DNA of 64,000 bases from Desulfosarcina ovata subsp. ovata (lineage in GTDB: Bacteria > Desulfobacterota > Desulfobacteria > Desulfobacterales > Desulfosarcinaceae): NCBI RefSeq assembly GCF_009689005.1, contig NZ_AP021879.1, forward strand, positions 2,728,001-2,792,000. Direction: 5' to 3'. Under the pieces are notes generated by a model, which was not told the DNA's origin, did not search any database, and was given only the letters and a program-made list of their open reading frames with translations. A program made the translations under genes and the position numbers. Below are positions 44,686 through 50,900 of the stretch, piece after piece. The first letter of the stretch is position 1, and every line of letters starts with the position of its first letter.

Positions 44686-45489
44686 TTACCTGCTGATTTC
44701 AACGCTTTTGATCGCACACATTAATGATTTCATGTCCGGGTATCCCAGGATGGGCTCCCTGCATTTGGCGTCTGTTAACAGATTGGCATTGGCCTGCCCG
44801 GACCAGCCATGGGGGACAAACACGATGCCGTCGGCCACGCAGTCCACCACACTGGCTTTCATGAACACGGTTCCCCTGTCCGTGGAAACGCTGACATCAT
44901 CGCCTTGTTTGATTCCGAAATCTTTGGCGGTGTTGCGGCTCAGTTCCGCCATGGGATGCGGGTCTTGCCCATTTAGCGCATCAATATTGCGGTGCTGGGA
45001 ATGGGTGTAATAATAGCTGCGGTTGCCGGTTCCCAGGATCAGGGGATATTTTTTTAGATCTCTGTATTTTTTTGACTGGGGGCTCTTGAGCGGCTCCAGG
45101 TATGTGGGCAAGGGATCGAATCCTGCCTGCTGCATGGCATCACTGTAAATTTCAATCTTTTTGGACGGCGTTTTAAACGTGCCGTCCGGGATCGTGTAGG
45201 ATTTTTGCTGGTAGTAATCGCCTTCGGGTTTCTCATTTAACAGGTAGTCAAAGGAAAACCCGGTCTGGCCCAGTTCAAAGGCAACCAGTTCCTCTTCCGA
45301 TGCCCAGGGGAAATATTCTTCCAGCCCCAGACGTTTTGCCAGCTCCGTGAAAAGTTTCAACTCAGACCAGCTTTCTTCGTAAGGTTCAATACACTTTTTG
45401 CGCAGCATCAGATAGGGGATGCAGTGGCACACATTGTAATTATAAGCCACGCCGTATTTTTCCAGGTTGGAGCACGCTGGCAGGACATA
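44686..45489 (-). pseudogene. Molybdopterin oxidoreductase, C-terminal fragment
   Basis: The minus-strand frame is open from the junction near 45489 through 'YVLPACSNLEKYGVAYNYN' to the stop at 44686. 'VLPAC' is the usual end of the molybdopterin domain, and 'ILGTGNRSYYYTHSQHRN' with 'MAELSRNTAKDFGIKQGDDV' and 'GIVFVPHGWSGQANANLL' belong to the C-terminal cap (molydop-binding) domain of formate dehydrogenase/DMSO reductase-type enzymes. The first ~450 residues, including the Fe-S cysteines and molybdenum ligand, are missing. It stops abruptly where an aldehyde dehydrogenase fragment starts on the other strand. Confidence 0.8.
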
Positions 45490-46016
45490 TTGTGAACGGG
45501 GTCAAACAATTAAAAGTGGGCAATCCGGCAGAACCGGACACCGTCATCGGCCCGATCATCAATCAATCCCAGTTGGACGGGCTGATCCAAAAAATAGAAT
45601 CCTCTCAGGACGGCAATGTCAAATTACTGTATGGCGGCAAGGCAGACGGCCTTTTGCTCCCTCCGCACGTTTTCAGCCCGGTCGACGGGAGCCATCAACT
45701 GTGCCAGGAGGAGACCTTCGGACCGTTGGTTCCGGTCACCGTCGCCGAAAATGAGGACCATGCCCTGCAATTGGCCAACGATACCCATCACGGATTGTCC
45801 AGTGCGGTGTTTACCGAAAATATGGCGCGGGGCTTGAATTTCGCGAGGGGTATCTACGCCGGGATGACCCACATTAACGATATTACCGTCGACGACCAGC
45901 CGTTAGCGCCCTTCGGTGGCGAGAAAAATTCCGGCATCGGCCGATTCAACGGGGATTATATCATGGAAGAATTCACCCGGGCCCATTGGATTACCTGGCA
46001 GGGCACGGGGCAATAA
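45490..46016 (+). pseudogene. Aldehyde dehydrogenase, C-terminal fragment
   Basis: From about 45490 the plus frame reads 'LKVGNPAEPDTVIGPIINQ', then 'QEETFGPLVPVTVAEN', 'LSSAVFTENMARGLNFA' and 'PFGGEKNSGIGRFNGDYIMEEFT', the C-terminal third of an NAD(P)-dependent aldehyde dehydrogenase. The catalytic Cys and Glu (N-terminal two thirds) are absent. No own promoter or ribosome site is seen. A palindrome GGCTCAGC...GCTGAGCC (46032-46076) follows and may be the original terminator. Confidence 0.8.
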
Positions 46017-46221: not shown

Positions 46222-47094
46222 TTAAAAGCCGTCACTTGCCAAAACTCGATACTTGTTGTTATTTAAGATTGTTTTGATCTTTTGGGATTGATCTTGAGGG
46301 TGAGGACTCTCAGGGAATGCTTTTAATAGAATTGCCACTTTGCTCAATTCATCCAATTCCCTCAGACAGTCCTTGAGCATTTCGTTGGTTTGTGTCTGGT
46401 ATCCGTTTTTCATGAAAACCGGCTTGTCGGGTACTGTCCATCCATTTTGCAGATGGTTGGCCAGTACACCCGATCAAGAACATCGATTGACGCTCTCGAA
46501 GAGGCTACAGTGTTGTTTTAAGAATGTTCTCAAGTGTCCACGCGCCCTGGAAATTCTTTTTCTGAATGCCTCAGGGCTGATTTCCAATATATACGCCCCT
46601 TCCTGGCTGGATACATCCATGATAACGCCTAAAATGAAGGCCAACCGATGCGGTCGATTCATGGCCGTCAATAACGCCTGGGTGCATCTAAGACGTGTTT
46701 CAATTTCGAGCATTTTAGATGGGACGGCGGGGGGATCGGCCAACCAACCGTTGGCCTCTGCTTGGTCAACTAGCTGAACGGCTTTTTCCCAACTAACCTC
46801 AAACCGCTCCATCCTGCTTTTCCTTACGGTGTTCAAATGGTTTGCAGCAATTCGAAATACCCACGCCTTAAAAGCGCCTTCAAACCGAAAAGATTCCAGA
46901 TTTCTAATTACTTTTATCAAAATCTCTTGGGTTGCGTCCTTTGCATCTTCCGGATGAGAAAGCATGCGTAGGGATAAAGCATAGATACTATCCTGAAAAC
47001 GCTGGACGATTTCCTCAAAAGCATCGTTCGATCCTCCTAAAGCCTCATGGATCACTTCTTCTATGGTCGGTCGATGGTTTTTTTTATTGCCCAT
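46222..47094 (-). CDS. ECF RNA polymerase sigma factor, interrupted by in-frame UGA
   Basis: One frame of 291 codons broken only by TGA at 46476-46474 (codon 207). The first part has sigma regions 2 ('LRMLSHPEDAKDATQEILIKV', 'WVFRIAANHLNTVRKSRM') and 4 ('RLAFILGVIMDVSSQEGAYIL', 'SPEAFRKRISRARGHLRTFL'). Then comes HCSLFESVNRCS followed by UGA; as I recall the family, homologues have 'CGLVNP.NPCRC', so UGA falls on the second Cys of a CxC zinc-type motif. The frame resumes with 'GVLANHLQNGWTVPDKPV' and a C-terminal domain 'NEMLKDCLRELDELSKVAILL', as in full-length (~290 aa) members. A hairpin starts one base after UGA. Selenocysteine or nonsense mutation are both possible. Confidence 0.7.
46428..46472 (-). 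promoter_or_regulatory. Hairpin immediately downstream of the in-frame UGA
   Basis: On the minus strand, one base after UGA, CGGGT(GT)ACTG pairs perfectly with CAGTACCCG (9 bp, two-base bulge), enclosing a second stem CCATC/GATGG with a 9-base loop. The position suits a bacterial SECIS, but the loop does not show the usual GGUC-type apex and lies a little further from UGA than in fdhF. It may be fortuitous. Confidence 0.35.
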
Positions 47095-48603: not shown

Positions 48604-50900
48604 CAGCCTCAAATATCACTATTTACTAGCTCATAAGTGAGACGAAAATTACTTCCGGGATACTCTATATCAGCCTTGTTGAGTTCGTCTAAAAGTGAGG
48701 CGATCGATCGATTGTCCGCCGGCGTCGAGGCATTGTGAATTCGTACGCGTAAGCGATTGTTTTCCATATCGGGTATTAGGTCGGCATCGGTGACGAACAG
48801 GCCCTGCAGCAGTTGCCTGGCATCGGGCATATCCACCGTTGGGCCGAGCAACATTGCCGCCATGGCCGTTTCGGCTCGATAGGCGATCATGCGCACGGTG
48901 TCCATCAATCGCTTGCGACCTGGAAGCAGCCGATTGAACTTGTCCTTGTCCTCCAGTTCCCCCCAGGTGATGTGTTTTGGTGTCTGCTTCAATTGTGCTT
49001 TCAACGTTACCAACTGATGTTCATGCTGGTCGATTTCTTCCAGCAGTTCGCTTTTTCGCTTCAGCCATTTTTGGTATTTCTCCGGATTGGTTTCGCTTTC
49101 CGGGTGCATGGTCATTTCGGTAAAGCGTGCCCGGCGGTAGCGCATCCGGCTTTGCACCTGATTACGGCTGCGGTTCAATTCCCGCCAGCTGGGGTTGACC
49201 ACTTTTTCGGTGTCAGGAATCTCCACGACGCCATATTCACAAAGCATATCGATTTCAAAGTGTTGCTTCATATAGCGAAAGAAATTTTCCTGACACCACC
49301 GGCTAAACATGCGTACCGCCAGTTGGGTATGCGGCAGATCGTAGGCGGTGCTGATCAGACTGGTTTGATGGCCCGAATCGGTCAGCTTGCGAACCTCACG
49401 CACCCAAAACGCGTTCTTGCCCGAGCCCAGCAAACTGCCCATCTCGGCCAAACGCATAGTGACTGTCTCGCCGTTGGGCATGATCACGGTTTTTTCCTCA
49501 AACCAACTCTCCGGCCACGGTTCGGCGGGGTGCTTGTGATAGGTGATGCAGGCAATCCGATGCATGCGCCACATCCGGGCAAAAAAGGCCGGGCTGTAGC
49601 CCTCCCGGTCGAAAACCAAAACGAAACGACAAAGATGGGCATTAGCCGCCAACGCCTTTTCATCGGGCTGATTGGGAACCTCGTCGAGCAGCCGTGGCAC
49701 GATGTCGTGCTCGACTACTTGGATAAGTCCGGGATCGATCGGCTTTTCGATCAGGAAAAAAGGCCGGCCGATGGAATCGTTGACCCAATAGTCGGTCGTG
49801 CCTCGCAAACACAGCCGCTGTCGGGTGACATAGCGCCGCGGTAGTTTGGTCAGCTTGCCGTGATAAACGCGAACATGGCCATCGACGTAAAGGGTACCGG
49901 CCGCATCGGGCTCGGCCTGCATCCAGTGATTGCTAAGATGCGCGGCCCATATCTCGGCCGCATTGGCTTCGCTCAAAGTATCCATCTTTTTCCGCAGGCA
50001 CCGTGCTTCCGGAACGCGATCCAAACCCAAAAGCTTGCCGAATTCACCCGGCGGATTCTCGCGCAAGCGTTCAACCGTCTTGATCCGGCAAAGCGTCATG
50101 AAGGCCAGCACCAGCAAGATTTGGAAGATGGTGTAATATCCTCGGATCTTGCCCAAAAGCTTTTCGGCGCCTTCCAAAATGCCGTTGGCCAAAAGTGCCG
50201 GCACGGCACACAAAACCCCTGCCTTGGGAACATCCAGGCAAGGCTCGAATCGCACCTGCGCTTCGCCTTGACCGATTGAGGCTAAAGCCCGATCCATAAC
50301 CCGAGTGCAGGCCGTACCCATGCCCTTGGCCGCGGCCGCATCCACCGCGCTGCGCGATGATTTATCCGTGCCTGCCCTCGCCTTGGATGCTTCGACATAT
50401 GGGCGCTCGTGCAAGCGCCCGTCGTTGATGGCCTTGCGGAAGGTGTCGAGCTTAACGCCTAACTGCTGAGCGGCATCGTGACGCGTGAAGCCATGATCCA
50501 AAAGGGACTGGGCTTGTTCGAGCACCTGCGGCTTCAGGATATGGCCTTTACGACCACCTGGTTTTCTTTGGAAAAAAGCCTCCGGGCCTCTTTCCCGCAA
50601 CTTTTTCAAAGCCCGGTTGACGTTGCTTTTGGAAATACCGAAGGTCTCAATAATATCCTTGTGACGGCACGTGCCAGCGTGGATCATCATCGATGTAATC
50701 AGCCTGAACAGCCGGTGGTCATCGGCAGCATGCGTGTAAATCGGGGTTAACCCCATATAATAAGTCCATCGATCTTCGCTTCGATAGACGGTCACCAGAT
50801 CGCTGATTTGTGTAGCTCCTTCTGGTATCAGCGGAAGAATTAATTGGGGCATGACACCTTCCTTATTGCTTTAACTACAGTGCAGTGAAATTTAAGGCTC
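48604..50900 (-). mobile_element. IS element of ~2.3 kb with 747-residue transposase
   Basis: Imperfect inverted ends CAGCCTCAAATATCACT (48604-48620) and AGTGAAATTTAAGGCTC (50884-50900; 14 of 17 match when inverted) bracket a single large transposase gene. The IS family was not identified; ends are proposed by eye and no target duplication was confirmed. Confidence 0.55.
48609..50852 (-). CDS. Large putative transposase (747 aa)
   Basis: It has an N-terminal helix-turn-helix pair (~50-150: 'ETFGISKSNVNRALKKLRERG', 'GFTRHDAAQQLGVKLDTFRKAI'), and a DDE-like core: 'LYVDGHVRVYHG' (first Asp), 'FVLVFDREGYSPAFF' (second Asp, ~400) and a distal 'CQENFFRYMKQHFEIDMLCEYG' with Glu, followed by a helical region ('SELLEEIDQHEHQLVTLKAQL'). 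Such proteins are annotated in Desulfobacterota and related phyla as putative transposases. It fills the element and its gene ends close to the left inverted repeat. It has no visible breaks and may be active. Confidence 0.7.
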   Translation of the reverse strand: MPQLILPLIPEGATQISDLVTVYRSEDRWTYYMGLTPIYTHAADDHRLFRLITSMMIHAGTCRHKDIIETFGISKSNVNRALKKLRERGPEAFFQRKPGGRKGHILKPQVLEQAQSLLDHGFTRHDAAQQLGVKLDTFRKAINDGRLHERPYVEASKARAGTDKSSRSAVDAAAAKGMGTACTRVMDRALASIGQGEAQVRFEPCLDVPKAGVLCAVPALLANGILEGAEKLLGKIRGYYTIFQILLVLAFMTLCRIKTVERLRENPPGEFGKLLGLDRVPEARCLRKKMDTLSEANAAEIWAAHLSNHWMQAEPDAAGTLYVDGHVRVYHGKLTKLPRRYVTRQRLCLRGTTDYWVNDSIGRPFFLIEKPIDPGLIQVVEHDIVPRLLDEVPNQPDEKALAANAHLCRFVLVFDREGYSPAFFARMWRMHRIACITYHKHPAEPWPESWFEEKTVIMPNGETVTMRLAEMGSLLGSGKNAFWVREVRKLTDSGHQTSLISTAYDLPHTQLAVRMFSRWCQENFFRYMKQHFEIDMLCEYGVVEIPDTEKVVNPSWRELNRSRNQVQSRMRYRRARFTEMTMHPESETNPEKYQKWLKRKSELLEEIDQHEHQLVTLKAQLKQTPKHITWGELEDKDKFNRLLPGRKRLMDTVRMIAYRAETAMAAMLLGPTVDMPDARQLLQGLFVTDADLIPDMENNRLRVRIHNASTPADNRSIASLLDELNKADIEYPGSNFRLTYELVNSDI

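Follow-up and report, generated by a model that had tools for sequence, protein, structure and literature searches.

Does the in-frame UGA of an ECF sigma factor gene encode selenocysteine (Sec), or does it end the protein? The gene lies in the window, i.e. the whole stretch of 64,000 nucleotides that was analysed, and a sequence-only reading had proposed a Sec-containing sigma factor with a plain nonsense mutation as the alternative. Translation of the minus strand gave, as proposed, one frame broken only by this codon: 290 codons and a stop, starting with the ATG at 47094 and ending with the TAA at 46224-46222, UGA at codon 207 (46476-46474) being the sole internal stop (Table 1). The peptide that had been quoted, CSLFESVNRCS followed by UGA, matches the translation exactly. 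The assignment to the ECF sigma factors is in agreement with the profile searches, in which Pfam Sigma70_r2 and Sigma70_r4_2 both scored above their cut-offs and NCBIfam placed the frame in the sigma70-ECF superfamily (TIGR02937, over cut-off); regions 2 and 4 are present and region 3 is absent, as expected for an ECF factor. The structure predicted for the protein (mean pLDDT 78.8) has SigW as its best fold match. Both sigma domains are finished when the UGA is reached, and what lies beyond is the last cysteine of the C196-x8-C205-x-C207 motif and an extension of 83 residues, in which Cys243 is the only cysteine.

Table 1. Features of the sigma factor gene and of its downstream neighbours (positions in the window).
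Feature	Position	Strand	Basis
ECF sigma factor frame, 290 codons + TAA, one in-frame UGA	46222..47094	-	translation; Pfam
Sigma-70 region 2, residues 29-86	46837..47010	-	PF04542, E 4.4e-12
Sigma-70 region 4, residues 136-188, complete 5' of UGA	46531..46689	-	PF08281, E 9.6e-07
Cys196 codon, invariant in the family	46507..46509	-	alignments
Cys205 codon, first Cys of CxC, invariant	46480..46482	-	alignments
In-frame UGA, codon 207; Cys (TGC/TGT) in homologues	46474..46476	-	translation; alignment
Predicted hairpin from UGA, -21.4 kcal/mol, loop CUGCAAA 21 nt past UGA	46425..46476	-	folding
C-terminal extension, residues 208-290, purifying selection continues	46225..46473	-	tblastn, dN/dS
Aldehyde dehydrogenase C-terminal fragment, profile 293-461 of 461	45492..46016	+	PF00171
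Molybdopterin oxidoreductase C-terminal fragment	44686..45450	-	PF01568 only; matches Fdh-alpha 429-669 only

The read-through protein was compared by tblastn with its relatives (32-72% identity), and the alignment crosses the UGA and continues to the end of the frame. The closest relative, the copy of genome G006 (71-75% identity), has TGC in the UGA column. This column is occupied by cysteine (TGC or TGT) in 101 of the 103 alignment rows that cover the three cysteine columns, the other two rows being the sigma gene itself; overlapping loci make some genes appear in more than one row, and the distinct genes are fewer. Residues 196 and 205 are cysteine in all 103 rows, and C137, C196, C205 and C207 are all invariant among 18 proteins aligned from across the phylum, suggesting, on the basis of the sequences, that the four cysteines may form a metal or redox site. 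The proposal that the UGA sits on a conserved cysteine of a CxC is thus upheld, the C-x8-C-x-C motif being invariant in all examined homologues that cover this position, and a single change from TGT or TGC to TGA suffices, as indicated by the TGC of the closest relative and the cysteine of the homologues. The C-terminal domain also continues in frame as claimed, with 83 codons that are aligned to relatives and constrained.

The searches covered 60 relatives and samples at the level of the family (30 genomes), order (389), class (389) and phylum (395), which overlap and take in part of the phylum's genomes; no second gene with UGA at the site of codon 207 was found in them. Internal stops in G434, G469 and G299 were considered as UGA, UAG or UAA homologues and rejected, these being normal terminal stops, and no relatives were found in viral contigs. 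The G006 orthologue carries a frameshift, one base being missing near codon 139. Decay of this orthologue was not retained as the explanation, since an assembly error is equally likely, the neighbouring ATP-sulfurylase gene being split too. Both genes are frameshift-split on contig C48 of G006 (locus L250, 9658-10928 and 11056-12053), which suggests indel errors at the two sites in this assembly. An intact paralogue of the sigma gene is present elsewhere in the host genome (5300743-5301570), followed by a small protein with an HKCGEFCG motif and without Pfam match (L254:6646-6927).

The nearest likeness is with uncharacterised ECF factors such as those of L054, L058, L061, G001, G003, G005 and G006, which have the same sigma2-sigma4 layout, the same extension and the same four invariant cysteines (137, 196, 205 and 207). 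Cys207 is present in all those examined, and the near ones adjoin a DUF3795 gene whereas the sigma gene studied here does not. In CorE and CorE2 of Myxococcus xanthus (former ECF44 and ECF238), a cysteine motif and a C-terminal extension sense metal or redox state (PMC8999054). The CxC of CorE is located in the sigma2-sigma4 linker and its tail is rich in cysteines, whereas here the CxC (205-207) follows region 4 (136-188) and the tail has one cysteine; membership of the CorE-like group (former ECF44) was rejected on the position of the CxC. In OrbS of Burkholderia cenocepacia, C-terminal cysteines of an ECF sigma factor are an on-board metal sensor (PMC9023288); OrbS is of the iron-starvation type and resembles the present protein in its general sigma fold and in the concept of C-terminal cysteines.

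The host is well equipped for Sec decoding. Its genome (7.63 Mb, one contig, 99.5% completeness) was searched for selA, selB, selC and selD, a check that the sequence-only reading had called for, and all four were found: selA is present, selB scored 374.8 bits in the profile search, above the cut-off, tRNA-Sec (selC) scored 75.4 bits (gathering score 47), and selD itself carries an in-frame TGA. Two fdhA and three flpD genes each contain an in-frame TGA as well, and the genuine Sec-UGA genes of the host number at least six.

As in SelD, FdhA and FlpD of the host, the in-frame UGA of the sigma gene is followed by a hairpin. The hairpin that had been proposed is indeed predicted, and is stable; its start is the UGA itself and not the base one further on, the UG of the UGA being paired at its base. 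A fraction of 0.0008 of dinucleotide shuffles and 3% of synonymous recodings fold as stably as the 54 nt from the UGA, and among 368 coding windows drawn at random with a comparable GC content not one did so. In the Cys relative, the corresponding 54 nt have an unremarkable folding energy (z -0.2) and lack the hairpin, and Thr220, where near relatives have an otherwise invariant Ile, forms two of the hairpin pairs when read from the sequence. A second hairpin of similar rarity occurs in the same gene at codons ~190-196. The published bSECIS model requires a G in the first two positions of the loop (PMC13188914). Against this model, the spacing of 21 nt (range 16-37 nt), the stem and the energy of the sigma hairpin conform, whereas the loop of the minimum free energy (MFE) fold, CUGCAAA, has no such G; the alternative loop GCAA, which passes, belongs to a suboptimal fold less stable by 1.2 kcal/mol. 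The loops of the six host Sec genes (GGA, GGA, GUU, GUU, GGGCU and GGGCU) all begin with G followed by G or U, and five of the six pass in the MFE fold, the sixth passing within 1.5 kcal/mol. Random coding windows pass at 26% in the MFE test and at 43% in the relaxed test, so that the pass of the sigma hairpin in the relaxed test alone is no evidence for Sec. In its MFE fold the sigma hairpin fails the published rule, and its loop differs from those of all six host Sec genes checked. An Rfam SECIS scan gave no relevant match at the sigma hairpin, nor did it match the genuine SECIS of selD.

The age of the UGA was approached by comparing the two sides of it with G006. Upstream of the UGA, the two genes share 77% of their amino acids, with a dN of 0.13 and a dN/dS of ~0.08; downstream, the values are 64%, 0.24 and ~0.07, dS being at or near saturation. 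Judged against outgroups, at sites invariant in near relatives, the sigma gene shows 1 change where the Cys relative shows 4 before the UGA, and 3 against 4 after it. In the relaxed-selection test, conserved sites have not changed in excess on the host branch on either side of the UGA, which rules out an old pseudogene and is compatible with a recent mutation. No second lesion was found in the sigma frame. The undecayed frame past the UGA means that this codon is either recent or decoded, and, together with the lack of a second lesion, that a mutation, if such it is, must be recent.

Ordinary nonsense interruptions were surveyed in 1.26 Mb of the host genome (60 stretches of 20 kb and the window) by a coding-potential scan followed by Pfam. 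Two genes with a single stop inside a domain were confirmed, both at non-Cys sites. One encodes a molybdopterin oxidoreductase with a single in-frame TAG inside PF00384 (L291 position 6314; ~4546314 on the host contig, G000:C1). The other encodes a rhodanese-domain protein with a single in-frame TGA (L307 position 4895; G000:C1 ~6464895), five residues past the cysteine of a CxxG, at a site that looks like the usual Arg. Two confirmed cases in 1.26 Mb indicate that such lesions are not rare in this host, and extrapolation to the whole genome gives of the order of ten nonsense-interrupted genes. A random single-base nonsense change falls on a Cys codon by 5 of 117 routes, or by 5 of the 31 routes that give TGA.

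The surroundings of the gene were also examined. A DUF3795 gene adjoins the orthologues in ~10 genomes (G001, G003, G005, G006, G283, G097, G212, G770, G434 and G183), and none was found in the 64-kb window, nor in 1.2 Mb sampled from the host genome. Downstream of the sigma gene, the two truncated genes of Table 1 stand head to head and meet at ~45450-45492, likely marking a rearrangement or deletion junction (44686-46016); upstream, beyond an enoyl-CoA hydratase, lies a transposase gene (48609-50852). At the DNA level, the G006 locus resembles this one in the sigma gene alone. The missing DUF3795 gene, the gene fragments and the similarity limited to the gene indicate that this copy was moved or that its partner was deleted, and such a place is a setting in which function is easily lost.

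Taken as a whole, these data are better accounted for by the plain nonsense mutation than by Sec, since the loop is wrong, the UGA has no counterpart in the relatives searched, a conserved neighbour has been lost and nonsense-interrupted genes occur elsewhere in the genome. We therefore regard it as probable that a recent Cys-to-stop mutation has left a complete sigma2-sigma4 factor, 206 residues long, that lacks the C-terminal extension; this weight, like those given below to the other explanations, is a matter of judgement and was not computed. A point mutation would have turned the Cys207 codon (TGC or TGT) of a solitary ECF gene into UGA. UGA207 would then terminate translation after residue 206, with regions 2 and 4 complete and with loss of the last CxC cysteine and of the 83-residue extension. 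The product would be an ECF sigma factor of normal size, either freed from or deprived of its on-board cysteine-based regulation: it should be constitutive if the extension inhibits, and inactive if the extension activates as in CorE. The rarity with which chance hits a Cys codon, the unusually stable hairpin and the lack of a second lesion speak against a nonsense mutation.

The Cys-codon odds, the stability of the hairpin and the intact downstream frame favour decoding as Sec, which we consider unlikely. The hairpin would serve as SECIS for the decoding of UGA207 by SelB and tRNA-Sec, the motif would become C-x8-C-x-U, and selenium supply could switch the product between 206 and 290 residues. 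The site on an invariant cysteine, the Sec machinery and in-frame-UGA selD, fdhA and flpD genes of the host, the hairpin with its spacing in range and its absence from the Cys relative, the two pairs supplied by the Thr220 deviation and the purifying selection 3' of the UGA are all compatible with this explanation. It is weakened by the loop, which qualifies only under a relaxed test that 43% of random coding windows also pass, by the relatives, among which no UGA homologue was found in the samples searched and the closest of which has TGC and no hairpin, and by the loss of the conserved DUF3795 neighbour in fragment-rich surroundings. Moreover, no sigma factor appears among the 119 families and subfamilies of prokaryotic selenoproteins in a review of 2026, one entry of which is a putative FmdB-family regulatory protein (PMC13188914). 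In a literature search for selenocysteine and ECF sigma factor together, neither term stood in the title or abstract of any paper returned. If Sec were nevertheless inserted, this would be the first sigma factor whose sensing site contains Sec, a feature of very few transcription regulators. The bare 206-residue sigma factor or the full-length sensor form would be made according to the selenium available, which would couple transcription initiation directly to the selenium supply and extend selenoproteins beyond redox enzymes and carriers.

A sequencing or assembly error that hides a TGC or TGT codon is quite improbable: the gene is otherwise intact and selectively constrained, as it should be if a single base alone were wrong, but the genome is a single contig of 99.5% completeness, and single-base substitution errors are less usual than indels in such assemblies. 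Low-level read-through of the UGA by a near-cognate tRNA (Trp or Cys), which would yield mostly short and some long sigma factor from the open and conserved frame, is very improbable, no specific signal having been identified and no relative having a leaky stop here.

Whatever the nature of UGA207, the family with its four invariant cysteines and linked cysteine-rich DUF3795 gene appears to be a so far unstudied regulator of the Desulfobacterota that responds to metal or redox state. The cysteine-rich DUF3795 gene lies beside members of this ECF family in, for example, L251:6426-6980, L250:12362-12853 and L252:4460-5041, all from Desulfobacterota, and is a candidate partner or target of the sigma factor.
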